The translations under genes and the position numbers were made by a program. DNA of 55,286 nucleotides from Actinomycetota bacterium (lineage in GTDB: Bacteria > Actinomycetota > Actinomycetes > Mycobacteriales > Mycobacteriaceae), in contig JAFDWN010000038.1 in the NCBI GenBank assembly GCA_018268465.1, positions 1 through 55,286 on the forward strand, written 5' to 3'. The notes under the pieces were generated by a model. The model saw only the letters and a list, made by a program, of their open reading frames with translations. It made no database searches and had not been told where the DNA came from. Below are positions 43,269 to 52,076 of the stretch, in pieces. Within the stretch, counting starts at the first letter, position 1. Every line of letters starts with the position of its first letter.

Positions 43269-44000
43269 CTACTGCAGGTCGCGGTCGGCGTTGCGGTAGA
43301 ACTCGACCCCTGGGTGCACGGTGACGGCGGCGTCCCCGCCGGGGCCGTGCAGGGTCGCGGGGACGCCGCGGCCGTTCTCTTCCAGCCGTTCGGCGAGAGT
43401 GTTCTGCCGGTCGGGGATCGTCAGCGTCAGCCCGTCGGCGCGGCCGGCGAGGTCGCCCTCGACGGCCACCCGGAGAATCTGGTCGAAATCCGGCGGCCGG
43501 GTGATGGTATGCGCCAGGTACGTTTCCGTGCCGTCGCCGAAGACGGCGTACTCGAGGCTGCCCAACGCTGTGGCGTCGGGGTCGTAGCGACGGGCATAGA
43601 CGACGCGGGTGATCCGTACATCCAGTCCGCGCGCGATGCGTGCCCGTTCGGGGTTGTCCTTTTCGACGTGGTCGCGGTACAGGTCGGCGGTGAGCGAGGA
43701 TCGCCGCGCCGGCTGGGAGTCCGTGGGCAGGATGTCGGAGAGCACGAACACGTCGGGGTCGAGTGTGTAGAGGCGTTGCCGCGGGTGCGCACCGCGGTCG
43801 TCGGCGTAGGCGGTCGACGGTCTGCCGTCGCCGTCGAAGAATTCGGCCTCCACGATGAGTTGAACGGCGTGTTCGGGCATGGCGAACATCGACAGGTGCG
43901 AAAGGTAGATCCTGTCGGTCCCGAAGACGACCCAGCGGTGGACGGTCTCCGGTTCGGTGGCGGTGTGGCCGCCGTGGCCGGCGTGGGCGTGTGGATTCAT
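43269..44000 (-). CDS. unknown protein of the LodA-type operon
   Basis: A 243-residue protein I do not recognise. It begins with a His/Gly-rich tail (MNPHAHAGHGGHTATEPE), which could bind a metal, followed by a mostly beta-strand region (VHRWVVFGTDRIYLSHLSMFAM, VQLIVEAEFF, VYARRYDP, LEYAVFGDGTETYLAHTI). No signal peptide or membrane helix is seen. It overlaps the LodB-type gene by four bases (ATGA), so it belongs to the operon and may assist maturation or act on the same substrate. Confidence 0.7.
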   Translation of the reverse strand: MNPHAHAGHGGHTATEPETVHRWVVFGTDRIYLSHLSMFAMPEHAVQLIVEAEFFDGDGRPSTAYADDRGAHPRQRLYTLDPDVFVLSDILPTDSQPARRSSLTADLYRDHVEKDNPERARIARGLDVRITRVVYARRYDPDATALGSLEYAVFGDGTETYLAHTITRPPDFDQILRVAVEGDLAGRADGLTLTIPDRQNTLAERLEENGRGVPATLHGPGGDAAVTVHPGVEFYRNADRDLQ

Positions 44001-45106
44001 CGGTCCTCCTTGCGAGATGTGGATGTGGACGTCTGGTGTCCGGCGTCGTGCCTGCGGGCCCAGAACGGTGCGTCCGGCCAGCGGGATTCCTGCCGGTAGT
44101 GGATGCGCCGCTGCCGCTGGTCGTCGGCGAACTGGGCCGACGCGGCGGCGGCGTATCCGTGCAACGCCGAACGGCGGTGTGCGCTGCCGAGCGCTCTGGC
44201 GATCGCGATACCGTTCGACAGGGCGCGCTCGACCCCGCGGCCGGCCAGCGGATCGATCGTGGCGGCCGCGTCACCGATTGCGGCCCAATCGATCCCGCAG
44301 ACCTTCGGCAGCCGCGAGGTGCTGGCCGAGGCGACCCGGGTGGTGGACCCGACGGCGGTGAGCTCGGCGATCCTGGTATGCGTGACGGGTGCCGAGGGCA
44401 GCCGCGCCCGCCAGAGATCCTGCGGCGGCAGGCCGGACCGGGCGACGTGGGCGGCGTCGGTCAGGAACGCCGCGGTGTGGCGATCGCCGTCGATACGGGC
44501 CGAATACCACCAGCCGTCCGGGCACGACTCGATCAACGCGCGACGGTCCGAAGTGACCGGGCGTCCTGTCGCGACGATTCCGACGAGACGGTCCTCCATC
44601 GTGCGCCGCAGGCCGAGAGCCCGCGCCAGCCAGGCCGACCGTCCGGTGGCATCGAGGGCGAAATCGGCCTGCAGGCACCAAGGTTCGCCGTCGCGGGCGA
44701 AGCGCCAACCACCGGCGCGGCGGTGCCGCGCGTTCAACCGCACCCCCGTGTGAATGACGGCGCCGGCGCGCGTGGCGGCGGTCTGCAGGAAGCGGTCGAA
44801 CCGGTCACGGTCGACGTGCCAGCCGCTGCCGTAAGGGCTGAACGCGAAGTCGTTGGCGTGCGGTGTCGCCGAACCCCACACGACGATCATTCCCGGTGAG
44901 CCGACGTGGCCGTCGGCGGTGAACGGATCCCACAGGCCGAGGTGCCCCAGCGGCACGCGGATCTCCGGAGGCAGCGATTCGCCGCGCGTCGCCGGCGCAA
45001 TCGGTCGATGCAGGACGGCGACCCGCGCACCGGCGCGGGCCAGCGCGATGGCGGCGGCGCATCCGGCCGGTCCGGCACCGACGACGGCGACATCGACGTG
45101 GTCCAT
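43997..45106 (-). CDS. LodB-type FAD-dependent monooxygenase
   Basis: A 369-residue flavoprotein with the Rossmann motif VDVAVVGAGPAGCAAAIALA, a DALDATGRSAWLARA-like mid-motif (DFALDATGRSAWL) and IGDAAATIDPLAGRGVERALSNGIAIARAL at the FAD-ribityl site, resembling tryptophan-halogenase/PHBH-fold enzymes. It starts 10 bases after the LodA-type gene. LodB proteins are needed to build the cysteine tryptophylquinone cofactor of LodA-type oxidases, so a maturation role is the best inference. Confidence 0.8.
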   Translation of the reverse strand: MDHVDVAVVGAGPAGCAAAIALARAGARVAVLHRPIAPATRGESLPPEIRVPLGHLGLWDPFTADGHVGSPGMIVVWGSATPHANDFAFSPYGSGWHVDRDRFDRFLQTAATRAGAVIHTGVRLNARHRRAGGWRFARDGEPWCLQADFALDATGRSAWLARALGLRRTMEDRLVGIVATGRPVTSDRRALIESCPDGWWYSARIDGDRHTAAFLTDAAHVARSGLPPQDLWRARLPSAPVTHTRIAELTAVGSTTRVASASTSRLPKVCGIDWAAIGDAAATIDPLAGRGVERALSNGIAIARALGSAHRRSALHGYAAAASAQFADDQRQRRIHYRQESRWPDAPFWARRHDAGHQTSTSTSRKEDR

Positions 45107-45116
45107 GGCGGGTTCG

Positions 45117-46592
45117 TCAGTCGGCCGGTTCGGGGAGCAGGCGCTCGGCTTCGACGAACACGGGCCGCCCCGCGGGGCCGGGTCTCTCGACGACGACCCC
45201 CAAACGGTCCCAGCTGGCCACCATGCCGGCCGCGCCGGTGACGCCGCGCGCCCACGGGACCAATCGTCCGTCCACGTCGGTGGGGTCGCGGTGGACATGG
45301 TCGGGACGTTGTGAGGGCCACCAGCCCCGCCCGTTCTGCTGCCGGCAGGCGATGAAGTCGGCCTGCCACGGCAGGGCGCAGCCTTCGGTGACGGAGCCGG
45401 GCGCCAGCACGCCGGGATCGAGCCGATATGCCTCGCGGTAGCTGACCGGGTCGGCGAGCACCGAACTGGCCTCGATCCCCGGGAAGAAGGCGCCGCCGGA
45501 TCCGGCCTGCAGCGCCACCCGGTCCAGTGCGTCGGGCACCGGCTCGTCCGGGCCGGTCGCGCTTCCCCAGTCGCCGATGAATTCCCCTGCAGCCCAACGG
45601 GTGAGAATCTCGTACTGGGTCGCCGACGGCGGCAGGACGTTCTTTTCGGTGTCGTCGTTGAGCCTGGGCATCCGGCCCGAGGCGGCCGGGTCGCCCGGCT
45701 TGCGCAACGCCGAGAGCAGACGGTGCCGATCGTCGGCATCGCCGTCGGGGTCCGCCAGGCGCGCCCAGCGTGACGACGTCGGCCCCCACGCGCGGTGTTC
45801 ACGCACCGCCAGTTCAGTGACCCACGAGTACCCGTACGGGCGCGCCAGAATCGGGTACACGTCGCGGGTGAACGACGGCCGCGGTGGTATCCGGCGCCAT
45901 CCCCGCGCGACGGCCGCGTCGAGGGCCACGTCGTAGAGGGTGACGAAGTTCAGGATGGGCGGCGCGAAGTCGGGCGGGGCCACGATCACCCACGCGGGGA
46001 CCGCGTCGTGCTCGGTGCCGTCGGGGGTGTGCACGACGGCGGAGACCGGACCGTCGGACGTGTCATCCCACCAGTTGTCGTTGTTGGCGAAGTGCTCGAT
46101 GCCGGTCTGCGGTTCGGACCCGGCTCTGCCCGAACCGCCCGCGACGCAGAGGCGACCGTCGCTGTCGATGACGATCTCGCCGAGTGGGACGGAGGTGTTC
46201 CTGAACCGGCCGCCGCCGAGGCGGGCGGTGCCGCCCGGACCCGACACCGACCGTGGGCCGGGATCGATGACCAGCCGTTCCCGATCGGTCTCCTCAGGGT
46301 TGCGCAACGCGCCAAGGAAGCCGGCCGATGCCGCCTTCCGGTTCACCAGGTGGACAGTCCATGTGATATCGGCTGCGCCCGCGCCGGTCTCGCGCGCCGC
46401 CACCAGCGTGCCGTCGGCGTCGCGCTGACATTCGTAGACGCGGAAACGCGCCGCCTGGCGTAGCAGTGCGCCGTGTTCGTCGCGGTATCGGGCCGGGCCC
46501 GGTTCGCCCGGTTCGGGCCCGATGAACCACGTGGGGCTCGACCCGACACGCGCGATGCCGATCGCGGGGTGGATCTCGAATCGGGTGGTCAT
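45117..46592 (-). CDS. LodA/GoxA-type CTQ-dependent amino acid oxidase
   Basis: A 491-residue protein of the LodA family of quinoprotein amino acid oxidases, which release H2O2. FEIHPAIGIARVGSSPTWFIGPE is the N-terminal family motif, PPPFAPPI-like and FTRDVYPILARPYGYSWVT match the centre, and PWQADFIAC (Cys416) with GRGWWPSQRP (Trp424/425) are the likely source of the cysteine tryptophylquinone. It is much shorter than LodA (about 700 residues). The ATG at 46592 starts just before the family motif. No signal peptide. Substrate unknown. Confidence 0.8.
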   Translation of the reverse strand: MTTRFEIHPAIGIARVGSSPTWFIGPEPGEPGPARYRDEHGALLRQAARFRVYECQRDADGTLVAARETGAGAADITWTVHLVNRKAASAGFLGALRNPEETDRERLVIDPGPRSVSGPGGTARLGGGRFRNTSVPLGEIVIDSDGRLCVAGGSGRAGSEPQTGIEHFANNDNWWDDTSDGPVSAVVHTPDGTEHDAVPAWVIVAPPDFAPPILNFVTLYDVALDAAVARGWRRIPPRPSFTRDVYPILARPYGYSWVTELAVREHRAWGPTSSRWARLADPDGDADDRHRLLSALRKPGDPAASGRMPRLNDDTEKNVLPPSATQYEILTRWAAGEFIGDWGSATGPDEPVPDALDRVALQAGSGGAFFPGIEASSVLADPVSYREAYRLDPGVLAPGSVTEGCALPWQADFIACRQQNGRGWWPSQRPDHVHRDPTDVDGRLVPWARGVTGAAGMVASWDRLGVVVERPGPAGRPVFVEAERLLPEPAD

Positions 46593-46611
46593 GACGTCAG
46601 TCGACGACGGG

Positions 46612-47757
46612 TCACCAGTACATGAGGGTGACGGTGCCGCGGGCGCCCTTGTAGACCACCCGAAGTCGGACGTGGTAGGTCCGGCCCGGCCGCAGCCGGT
46701 AGGTGATGCTCGCGGTGCGATCACCGCCGCTGTCGTCGTCGCCGGCCAGGAACCGTGCCTCCCCGTCGACGTCCTCGAACAGGGTGAGCAGGGTGTCCGT
46801 GGCGCCGAAGGTGCCGATGGTGTAGCTCCCCGTATTGTCGACGGTGAGCTGGTAATCGATCTGCTCCCCGCCGGAGACGTCCACGGTGACCGGTTCGTTG
46901 ATCCGCAGTGTGGGCTCCGACCCGCTGTCGCCGGTCGCGGGGTACCAGGTCCTGGCCCAGGTCAGGTCGAGCGCCGACAGCGTGCCAGGGGGGAAGATCC
47001 CGTTGCGGTACGCGGCGGGTGCGTCGATGAGCCCGGCGGGAAACTGGTATTCCATGATGGAGTCGGGATCCCAGTTCGAGCCGGTGTAGTCGGATTTGTC
47101 GAGTTTGCGTAACACGTTGTGGTACGTGGTTTCGCGGGGCCAGTTGTTCGGAGGACCGCCGAGGTGCTGGTAGACCGCGGCCTCGTTCCAGACGATTCCG
47201 GCGAACGGGTTCTGGTGCTCGTGGGGCATCCCCAGGGTGTGGCCGATCTCGTGGACGGCGGTGGTCAGGCCGTAGGCGTCGCGATCGAGTCGCCAGCCGA
47301 AGCTCATCGTCCGCTCGTTCAGCGGACGGTCGAGGATGTCGCGGCCGAGGTAGGACCACGACCCGTCGCCCAGGAGGTAGCCGATGCGGATCTCGGCCTC
47401 GCGGGTGTCGGTCACCTCCGCGAACTGGACGCCGATCGGGACCTCCTGCCAGACCTGAAAGGCCTTGCGTATCACTGCGGCCTGCTCCTGGGGCACCGCC
47501 CACGGTCCGGTCGCGAAGAACGCGTAGTGCAGGATCGTGCGGTTCACCCACTTTCGCTTCGTCGCGATGATGGCGCGTTCCCGATCGGAGTTGACGGCGA
47601 CGCCGGGTGGCAGCGCGACTTCGGGTGCGGGCGGCGCCGAGCAGTAGTGCAGCGGCGCGGCCTCGACGTACTCGTCGCCGCCGTCTCCGTTGGCCGTCTT
47701 GCCCGCCGCGGCGGGTTTCGCCGCTGCCGTCGGTTTGCCGGGAGCCTTGGTGGTCAT
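46612..47757 (-). CDS. astacin-like metzincin protease with PPC domain
   Basis: A 381-residue predicted zinc endopeptidase. An Ala/Lys/Pro-rich N-terminus without a signal peptide precedes the catalytic domain (about 70-275) with HEIGHTLGMPHEHQ (His169, His173, His179) and the Met-turn SIMEY (Met235), the metzincin pattern of astacins. The last ~95 residues (VTVDVSGGEQIDYQLTV to VTLMYW) form a PPC-type beta domain. The ATG at 47757 has GAGGGGG eight bases upstream. First gene of the operon containing the LodA-type oxidase, 19 bases away. Confidence 0.86.
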   Translation of the reverse strand: MTTKAPGKPTAAAKPAAAGKTANGDGGDEYVEAAPLHYCSAPPAPEVALPPGVAVNSDRERAIIATKRKWVNRTILHYAFFATGPWAVPQEQAAVIRKAFQVWQEVPIGVQFAEVTDTREAEIRIGYLLGDGSWSYLGRDILDRPLNERTMSFGWRLDRDAYGLTTAVHEIGHTLGMPHEHQNPFAGIVWNEAAVYQHLGGPPNNWPRETTYHNVLRKLDKSDYTGSNWDPDSIMEYQFPAGLIDAPAAYRNGIFPPGTLSALDLTWARTWYPATGDSGSEPTLRINEPVTVDVSGGEQIDYQLTVDNTGSYTIGTFGATDTLLTLFEDVDGEARFLAGDDDSGGDRTASITYRLRPGRTYHVRLRVVYKGARGTVTLMYW

Positions 47758-47970
47758 TGCATTACCCCCTCGTGTCGAGTCGGCGGACATGCGCCGTGTT
47801 CTCGACGCTAGATCGCGGGGGGCCGGCGCACCCGAGTACCGCACTACCCGATTGCGGCGGCGGGGCTGGACGGGCCGGTGAGTGCCACATCTCCGACCGG
47901 GCACGCCCGGCCGGAGACGAGTAGGTCGCTACTCACGACGGTGCTCGTGGCGCCCGCCACACTGGGACGG

Positions 47971-48885
47971 GTGAACCCGCCGACACCGCACCCGGGCCCG
48001 CCCGACAGTGCGCGGGTGTCCGGCACACCGCTGCCTGTCATCGGCACTGTTACCACGATCGCGGCCACGGTCGACGCGATCGATGCGATCATCGCGTGGT
48101 CGATCGCCAACGCGAGCAGACTGGGCTACTTCGCGGCCTTGTACAAGCGGATCACCCTGGCCGTCGGTGCGGCGGTGTCCGACGGCGTGTTCGACGACGG
48201 CCCGCGCATGGAGCGGTTCGACGTCGCGTTCGCCGGGCGGTACTTCGCCGCACTCAACGGCTACTTTCACCCGGGCCGCTTCCCGCCTGCTCCGCAGTCC
48301 TGGCTGGTCGCGTTCGACGCGGCAGTGCGGCACGACCCGATTGTCCTGCAGCACATGCTGTCCGGCATCAACGCGCACATCGACCTCGACCTCGGCATCG
48401 CGTCCCATGAGGTCGCCCCCGGCGCACGCCTGCACACGCTGCACGGTGACTTCGACCGGATCAACGCGGTGCTGGCCGGCCAGGTCAACGCCACCCTCGA
48501 CGGCATCCACGAGATCTCACCCGCCCTGGCCGACCTGTACACCGTCCTGGCGCAGAGCGAGACGTTCCTGATCGACGTCGCCGTAAGGAATCTGCGCGAC
48601 AGTGCGTGGCGCTTCGCGACCGTGCTGGCCGCCACCCCGCGGTTCAGCCACGGCGTGTGGATCTGGGCCCGCGACCGGCACGTCGCGGCACAGGCGGAGG
48701 CGATCTATCGACCGCCGAGCCTGGCCGGTGTCATCGACGAGGTGATCGCCGAGATTGCCGCGCGCGAGAGCCGCGACGTGGTCGCCAACATCCGCATCCT
48801 CGACCGGATCGCCGCGCGCCCCGCGCCGATCATGACCACATTGCGCACCACGGGCGGCCATCCGTCGGGCGCCGGCATGCGATAG
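47971..48885 (+). CDS. DUF5995 family protein
   Basis: A 304-residue mainly helical protein. RMERFDVAFAGRYFAALNGYFHPGRFPP, HDPIVLQHMLSGINAHIDLDLGIAS and ISPALADLYTVLAQSE match DUF5995, a family of unknown function found in actinobacteria and other bacteria; the INAHIDLDLG segment is its most conserved part. Start uncertain: GTG at 47971 or 47878 in the same frame. Divergent from the metzincin operon and convergent with upp. Confidence 0.75.
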   Translation: MNPPTPHPGPPDSARVSGTPLPVIGTVTTIAATVDAIDAIIAWSIANASRLGYFAALYKRITLAVGAAVSDGVFDDGPRMERFDVAFAGRYFAALNGYFHPGRFPPAPQSWLVAFDAAVRHDPIVLQHMLSGINAHIDLDLGIASHEVAPGARLHTLHGDFDRINAVLAGQVNATLDGIHEISPALADLYTVLAQSETFLIDVAVRNLRDSAWRFATVLAATPRFSHGVWIWARDRHVAAQAEAIYRPPSLAGVIDEVIAEIAARESRDVVANIRILDRIAARPAPIMTTLRTTGGHPSGAGMR

Positions 48886-48894
48886 CGCATCGCC
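48874..48894. terminator. hairpin between convergent DUF5995 and upp genes
   Basis: GGC-ATGCG and CGCAT-GCC arms with one bulged base and a 4-base loop, overlapping the DUF5995 stop codon and lying just before the convergent upp stop at 48908. Confidence 0.42.
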
Positions 48895-48907
48895 GAGGAG
48901 CGGCGCC

Positions 48908-49537
48908 CTACTTGGTTCCGAAGATGCGGTCTCCCGCGTCGCCGAGTCCGGGCACGATGTACCCGTGCGCGTCGAGTTCCCGGTCGATCGCGGCGGTGTA
49001 GATCGGCACGTCGGGGTGCGCGTCCTGCATCGCGGCGACACCTTCGGGGCAGGTCAGCAGGCACACGAACTTGACGGACTTCGGTGCGCATTCTTTGAGC
49101 CGGTCCACGGCGGCCACGGCCGAGTTGCCGGTGGCCAGCATCGGATCCACCACGACCACGTCGCGTTCATGCAGATCACCCGGCATCTTGAAGTAGTACT
49201 CAACGGCCACAAGGGTTTTGGGGTCACGATAGAGTCCGATATGCCCGACGCGCGCGCCGGGCACCACCGAGAGCATGCCGTCCAGGATGCCCGTTCCCGC
49301 ACGCAGGATGGAGACGAACACCAGCTTCTTGCCGTCGATGACACGGCCGGTGGTGTGTTCCAGCGGTGTGTCGATCTCGATCTCGTGCATCGGGATGTCC
49401 CGGAGCACCTCGTAGGCCATCAGCGCCGAGATTTCGTTGACGAGGCGGCGGAAGCTGTTGGTCGACGCCTCTTTTCGCCGCATCAGCGTCAGCTTGTGCT
49501 GCACCAGTGGATGTTCGACCAGGTGTACGTTTCCCAT
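48908..49537 (-). CDS. upp: uracil phosphoribosyltransferase (URC operon)
   Basis: A 209-residue uracil phosphoribosyltransferase converting uracil and PRPP to [17 protein letters not shown] is the N-terminal signature, [14 protein letters not shown] and [19 protein letters not shown] the PRPP site, and [18 protein letters not shown] the uracil-binding C-terminus. Third gene of an operon with URC4- and URC1-type genes, where such an enzyme (URC6-like) takes part in uracil breakdown instead of, or as well as, salvage. Confidence 0.93.
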
Positions 49538-49545
49538 GGATTCCC

Positions 49546-50798
49546 TCAGAAGACCGTGCCGTCGCTGTGGATGGTCAACGGCGGCAGGCCGCCGCGCAAC
49601 TCCTGCGCGGTGGCGCGGCCGGCGGCCCAGGTTCCGCCCTCGAGCACGCACGCCAGCGGCATCGTGTCGGCGTCGACGCCCAGTTCGGCCCTGATGAGCG
49701 GGGCGAGTTCGTCGAGCAGAGCCACGGTCAACGCGCGCCACTCCACGATCATCTCGTCGTCCACCGCCCACACGTGAGCGGACATCGCGGGGTCGCGCAC
49801 CCGCAGGATTCCGGTGTCGAGCAGCAGACCGCCGTTGCGGTATTCGGGCAGGGCGGTGAGTCCGTCGCGGCCCACGACCCGTACCCCGGCCCATTCGAAC
49901 GGTTCGAGCAGTGAGTAGCTCAGCCACTGCGAGAGTTTGTGGAAGGGCATCCAACCCGCCGTCAGGCCCGGACCTGAGACGGCCGGATGCCGCCAGCAGT
50001 CGCCGAGCGGCAGGCCGCCGATGGCGTTGGCCGCGGGCCAGATGGCCGACATCGAACTGAGTAACTGCGACAGGATATCCTGCGCGGCAATGGTTTCGGT
50101 GTGCGCGCACAGTGCGTCGAACAGTCCGCCCGGCCGGGCGTCGTGACCGAACACCTCGGGCTGCTCGGTCAGGACATCGGCGAGCCGGTGCAGCACCCGC
50201 ACGCGGCCGTCGAGGCCGACCAGCGGAGCCGACGGGCCGGCCTGGAACGCCTGGGCCAGGGTGGCGGCGTCGAGCCGACGCAGGCCGACGGCGTCGACTT
50301 GGAGCGGATGGTCGATGTCGCCGGAGAAGAGGCCGCCGACGAAGGCGTGCCAACTCGCCACCCCGAGGCCCTCCGAACGGGCGAAGCGCAGTCCGGTGCC
50401 GGGTTCGTCGAAATGCCAGTCGGGACCCGCGCCCGCGTCGAGCAGCACGCTGACCACCGCCAGGTCGATCGTCACGCGGGCACGGTCCCGCACGCTCGCC
50501 GACACCAGCCGGGCGTCGAGGTCGGCGGTGCGGTCCACACCGCCGGCCTCGAAGTGACGCCAGCGACTGTGGTAGGGGATGGCGAGGTCGGGATACCGGG
50601 ACCGGGTGACCGCGGCCACGGTGGCTGCCGCGGCAGGCAGGGCGGCATCGTGCACGCTGAACCACGGTGAGGCGCCGGCGCGGGCCCGGTCCAGCAGCTG
50701 GCGCGCCCGCTCGCGCACCGCCGCGGTGTCCCGCAGCGCGGCGGCAGCGCCGTCTGGCCGTTCGGTGTCGGGTAGGGAAGTCATGCCGGCCGGGCTCA

Positions 50799-50799
<1 letters not shown>
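49546..50799 (-). CDS. URC4/DUF1688 uracil catabolism protein
   Basis: A 417-residue DUF1688 protein, the family of yeast URC4 and bacterial equivalents needed for uracil use as nitrogen source. [55 protein letters not shown] and [16 protein letters not shown] are the conserved blocks. Its chemistry is not established. The ATG shares one base with the upstream stop (TGATG) and upp follows after eight bases. Confidence 0.88.

Positions 50800-52076
<1,277 letters not shown>

Follow-up and report, generated by a model that had tools for sequence, protein, structure and literature searches.

The closest described systems to the operon studied here are LodA/LodB of Marinomonas mediterranea and GoxA/GoxB, in which an oxidase with the cysteine and tryptophan of a cysteine tryptophylquinone (CTQ) is accompanied by a neighbouring flavoprotein gene. 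The accessible portions of the published work name LodB as the dedicated partner of LodA-type enzymes, and relatives of LodA are described as producers of H2O2, some of them antibacterial (PMC4417212). In QHNDH biogenesis the CTQ subunit is trimmed by QhpE, a subtilisin-like protease that removes a leader (PMC7876137). The Psilocybe decarboxylase PcncAAAD is a PLP enzyme with a C-terminal double beta-barrel domain (PDB 6ebn); according to the part of PMC13062060 available to us, which cites earlier work, removal of this domain abolishes activity and co-expression of the domain rescues it partially. Here we analysed a stretch of 55,286 nucleotides from a mycobacterial genome (the window), in which four ORFs on the minus strand, at positions 47757-43269, encode a metzincin, a LodA-type oxidase, a LodB-type flavoprotein and a protein that we call D.

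All four ORFs of the operon described in the initial annotation are present and tightly spaced. The metzincin and lodA genes are 19 nt apart, lodA and lodB 10 nt, and the stop of lodB and the start of D share a 4-nt ATGA overlap (43997..44000, minus strand, read from the window ORFs), and this arrangement suggests a single transcript for the four genes. None of the four proteins shows a signal peptide when its first 45 residues are scanned for hydropathy, in agreement with the initial annotation. Composition of the window compared with 20 other contigs of its own genome gave correlations of 0.81-0.83 against 0.72-0.85; because the window matches its own contigs, contamination from a distant organism is disfavoured on composition, but a close relative as the source is not, as a stretch from another species of the genus also gave 0.81. 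In the region 47959-52076 a DUF5995 gene (Pfam) is divergent from the operon, and beyond it lie frames with UPRTase, DUF1688 and GTP cyclohydrolase domains, which we take to be perhaps a uracil-catabolism cluster. DUF5995 was considered as an operon partner and rejected: it gave no matches in LodA loci (the best 80 of 586 matches listed) and was found in 3 of 31 relatives, own genome included.

The oxidase (45117..46592, minus strand, 491 aa) has the Pfam domains LodA_N (1.3e-60, 205.4 bits, cut-off 26.3) and LodA_C (2.3e-21, 76.5 bits, cut-off 25), while its scores against the NCBIfam LodA and GoxA equivalogs, 157.4 of 600 and 225.7 of 750 bits, are below both cut-offs. HMMER alignment with LodA places Cys416 (codon 45345..45347, minus strand) on LodA C516 and Trp425 (codon 45318..45320, minus strand) on W581, and both residues are invariant in 30 aligned rows, the window among them, which were hand-picked from the best 80 of 586 matches listed and are mostly unfused LodA. 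The two domains, the CTQ residues and the adjoining lodB-like gene point to membership in the LodA/GoxA family, as initially annotated, and the modelled fold agrees with LodA/GoxA over 463-473 residues. The window protein differs in size (491 residues versus 726 in LodA or 816 in the GoxA chain), in the Cys-Trp spacing (9 residues versus 65 in LodA) and in having both D and a metzincin in its operon, unlike LodA/LodB and GoxA/GoxB. Its shortness had been seen as an oddity, a view that we abandon: the aligned relatives lack the same inserts, compact relatives are common among the 30 hand-picked rows, and a member of 481 aa is described in the available text of PMC4417212. At three other loci (L019-L021) compact LodA genes lie beside multicopper-oxidase, tyrosinase or galactose-oxidase-like genes.

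The flavoprotein (43997..45106, minus strand, 369 aa) is the presumed CTQ maturase. It matches FAD_binding_3 and Trp_halogenase in Pfam, the NCBIfam models NF038171 (2.7e-54) and QhpG NF049967 (7.9e-50), both under cut-off, and in the PDB the peptidyl tryptophan dihydroxylase 7ctq (6.3e-22); at 184.6 of 400 bits for the equivalog, it is a homologue and not the named equivalog. The resemblance to QhpG by NCBIfam and PDB, and the presence of a peptidase-type gene in both operons, bring the locus close to QHNDH biogenesis, with the difference that the window has a metzincin in place of subtilisin-like QhpE and shows no leader.

The fourth gene, D (43269..44000, minus strand, 243 aa), matched no family in Pfam or NCBIfam, and neither did 23 members of its family convincingly (best values 0.027-0.099), so the operon does end in an unnamed family. 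The description of D as His-rich fits mainly its N-terminus, with 12 His in 243 residues overall. The first relatives came from an Embleya megaplasmid, where D is the gene immediately after lodB, and from Pseudoalteromonas, where 16.5 kb fetched around D held no LodA. With a three-row profile, 394 genomes of the class gave three with D, among them the window's own genome and one weak match, and a profile of four rows found D in 37 of 345 Streptomycetaceae genomes. LodA_N was present in 54 of the same 345 genomes, and both D and LodA in 29 (Fisher p 2.6e-20, with relatedness ignored). Within the window's genus a 23-row profile matched three of 148 genomes, namely the window's own, G111 (weakly) and G041, in which a D relative 42% identical to that of the window follows a P450 gene (L227, 4103-6137) on a 12.6-kb contig where LodA was not found.

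When 40 D regions were fetched (L108 and L183-L221), LodA was near D in 28 and the order lodA-lodB-D on one strand was seen in 25. The ATGA overlap of lodB and D recurs in 21 of the 25 Streptomycetaceae lodA-lodB-D operons (20 by script and L200 read from the bases), in addition to the window and Embleya (L013). D is thus a recurrent partner of LodA and LodB. Locus L198 has the order D-lodA-lodB and a compact LodA that is the closest to the window's among D-linked ones, while L183 and L220 have LodA near D with no LodB detected, L214 has LodB without LodA, and neither was seen at 11 of the 40 loci. The operon at L183 (7167-10059) is of the Embleya type: its LodA and D resemble those of L013 at about 90%, and LodB was not detected between them. 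L214 (8409-10184), where LodB is matched in two separate frames next to D, looks decayed. Just before D, L209 (7666-9228, 520 aa) and L218 (7089-9188, 699 aa) have ORFs without a Pfam match; the 520-aa ORF was dropped as a nameable partner of D, having no PDB match either. The idea that D might also exist fused into long LodA proteins was likewise rejected, as a search of 7,138 ORFs returned only the window's and Embleya's own D.

The linkage is not universal in either direction. D occurs without LodA in 8 of the 37 Streptomycetaceae D genomes, and LodA without D in 25 of the 54 LodA genomes; D was also found in none of 80 LodA loci (the best 80 of 586 matches listed; tblastn and profile over their ORFs), and it follows that many LodA enzymes manage without D. 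These loci were matched by one peptide pattern, and closer LodA genes may exist, L198 being one. Identities of LodA and of D correlate at 0.91 over 27 loci, which is weak evidence because shared descent alone can yield the same. In one genome of the window's class (G562) LodA is 91% identical to the LodA of an Embleya record, which suggests an actinobacterial host for the window. In a LodA tree built from 119 rows, 29 of them D-linked (quick method with SH-aLRT support, excluding 12 D loci that lacked a 380-residue stretch of LodA and including one locus twice, as L002 and L109), the D link required 5 state changes against 26.2 for shuffled labels, and the starred branches force at least five. 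D-linked LodA is found at three distant places, the window, L198 and a Streptomycetaceae clade, and the Cys-Trp spacing across these types is 9, 5 and 20-22 residues. D may have been recruited repeatedly to unlike LodA types, and losses could account for part of the pattern. At loci such as L016, L066, L072 and L094 the LodA falls inside the D-linked clade and no D was found nearby.

The alignment of D comprises 40 of 43 relatives (the fragments L200, L220 and L221 were dropped), and H21, H35, Q47 and H164 are identical in all 40 members and H44 in 38. The 23-member profile matched residues 715-905 of 6ebn_A with an E value of 7.9e-8, and the only other PDB match up to E 10 was at 0.28; an earlier three-row profile had the same chain as its sole match, at 0.83. 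The 6ebn segment scored 38.4 bits against the profile, compared with at most 11.2 for 20,000 shuffles of the same composition, and a profile of the 19 LodA-linked rows only gave 24.1 bits versus 11.6 for shuffles. Searching in the opposite direction, from the 6ebn segment by itself to the D ORFs, gave a weak result, the best E being 0.0002, to the unlinked Pseudoalteromonas D. The four invariant residues H21, H35, Q47 and H164 align with H723, H738, Q750 and H849 of PcncAAAD. By this profile match and the four kept residues, D is related to the C-terminal appendage domain of PcncAAAD. The initial label of unknown family still holds as far as Pfam and NCBIfam names go, and it undervalued D, which now has a relative in 6ebn.

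There are also differences. The appendage domain is fused to a PLP decarboxylase, whereas D is free-standing and linked to a quinoprotein. PcncAAAD binds calcium at sites A and B according to the part of PMC13062060 at hand; the site B ligands E824 and D825 are other residues in the D of the window and of Embleya, and D971 of site A lies outside the match. Since the site B ligands are absent, calcium activation is not to be assumed for D. A single-sequence model of D had a pLDDT of 39.8 and was unusable, and a beta-barrel-type fold is suggested for D by its likeness to 6ebn.

We propose, by analogy with PcncAAAD, that D acts in trans as a partner of LodA or LodB. We find it somewhat probable that the locus is, as a whole, a lodA-lodB-D core with LodA as oxidase, LodB as its maturase, D as a trans-acting stabiliser and the metzincin as a lineage-gained accessory. 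LodA, as a compact quinoprotein oxidase, would deaminate an amino acid or amine and release H2O2 and ammonia, after LodB, its dedicated flavoprotein, has presumably completed the CTQ. D would be translated in step with LodB and, as a separate beta-barrel-type partner, could bind LodA, alone or together with LodB, and stabilise either the oxidase or its precursor, in the way that the appendage domain, its homologue, serves PcncAAAD. That D is also found away from LodA operons points to a general accessory domain and speaks against a CTQ-specific role.

The main rival to stabilisation in trans is, in our judgement, that D delivers copper, or is a metal-binding protein, and helps the CTQ tryptophan through its first hydroxylation, ahead of LodB. 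This step in LodA is apparently copper-dependent (as stated in the available part of PMC7876137), and the invariant polar residues of D, together with an N-terminus that is His-rich in several members, would suit such a task. However, the accessible text of PMC13062060 does not list the aligned PcncAAAD residues as metal ligands, D is also found without LodA, and LodA genes inside the D-linked clade, such as those at L016, L066, L072 and L094, have no D found nearby, and we consider metal delivery unlikely.

The metzincin, the first gene of the operon (46612..47757, minus strand, 381 aa), is of the AbsR1/SCO6992 kind. The hallmarks of metzincins are the HExxHxxGxxH motif and a Met-turn, and both are intact in the window protein, by which it is classed as a metzincin: a motif scan placed the zinc-binding HEIGHTLGMPH at residues 169-179 (47221..47253, minus strand), and SIMEY, the Met-turn, is at residue 233. 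It matches Matrixin (5.7e-11) and Astacin (4.5e-8) in Pfam, and its best PDB relative is myroilysin (5gwd, 8.9e-27). The AbsR1 model NF050131 covers it almost end to end (residues 37-381) with 380 bits, below the equivalog cut-off of 650. A PPC domain had been annotated in this protein, which we could not reproduce, as Pfam called none and gave weak DUF7927/DUF7507 matches only, and the C-terminal 96 residues had no match in the PDB. SCO6992 of Streptomyces coelicolor is reported to bind zinc and to have beta-glucuronidase activity but no protease activity on skim milk or azocasein, and no neighbouring lodA is mentioned in the part of PMC9705864 that was available. As SCO6992 is without protease activity in that account, the label of protease is unsafe for the window metzincin, and any part in feeding or processing is speculative.

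Neither the 80 LodA loci (the best 80 of 586 matches listed; tblastn, with a best value of 0.33 at E up to 10) nor the 40 D loci fetched (tblastn, with a lax repeat at E up to 10) yielded the metzincin, flanks being below 10 kb where locus contigs were short, and we reject it as a conserved partner. The initial annotation had joined metzincin, oxidase and His-rich protein into one self-contained module; the link to D is borne out by the 25 lodA-lodB-D loci, and the metzincin drops out. The metzincin has homologues in 7 of 148 genomes of the genus; one of these is the window's own genome, and in the remaining six the identity is 31-39%. It seems that the metzincin is a local, lineage-gained addition to the operon.

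The genes upstream of lodA were surveyed at 84 loci (the best 80 of 586 matches listed and four plasmid loci), taking from each up to two same-strand ORFs of at least 140 aa whose ends lie close to where the LodA match begins; not every locus yielded one, and the 95 ORFs obtained may include spurious ones. Among the Pfam matches listed (25 of 55 families) there were 14 Ferritin-like PF12902, 5 Peptidase_S8, 4 Tyrosinase and 1 Pro-kumamolisin. The gene upstream of lodA thus varies across loci, and the window metzincin is one more variant. Three of the five Peptidase_S8 ORFs were traced: in three Actinoplanes loci (L029 and L054 by Pfam, L034 by similarity to L029) a subtilase is immediately before lodA, with lodB on the opposite strand, and in Paraburkholderia an S53 peptidase is upstream.

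These peptidases, the QhpE precedent (PMC7876137, as far as available), the shared operon and the intact zinc motif would fit a metzincin that is a working part with LodA or D as the protein it processes, comparable to the trimming of the QHNDH CTQ subunit by QhpE. Yet the metzincin is missing from both sets of loci, SCO6992 is reported to be without protease activity, and the window LodA has no visible leader, aligning with GoxA/LodA from residue 3 or 4, all of which makes processing quite improbable. That the metzincin supplies amino acids as substrates to a peroxide-making antibacterial device, an idea encouraged by the H2O2 formation and occasional antibacterial action of LodA relatives, is very unlikely, as the four proteins have no signal peptide by the hydropathy scan, the metzincin link is not seen in the other LodA and D loci, and protease activity in its subfamily is putative.

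A literature search of titles and abstract openings returned no third conserved gene of lodA operons like D, a family without a name to search by, and no bacterial relative of the PcncAAAD domain. With 6ebn, this unnamed bacterial family gains its first relative of known structure, and D offers small free-standing bacterial homologues for studying trans activation by the appendage domain of PcncAAAD. A third, translationally coupled partner would alter how LodA-type oxidases are expressed and studied. It is possible, although we put this forward tentatively, that many actinobacterial LodA systems have D as an obligatory third component, a free-standing activating subunit from the family of the PcncAAAD appendage domain. 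If true, one small domain would have been recruited, in trans or fused, to activate two unrelated amino-acid-consuming enzymes.
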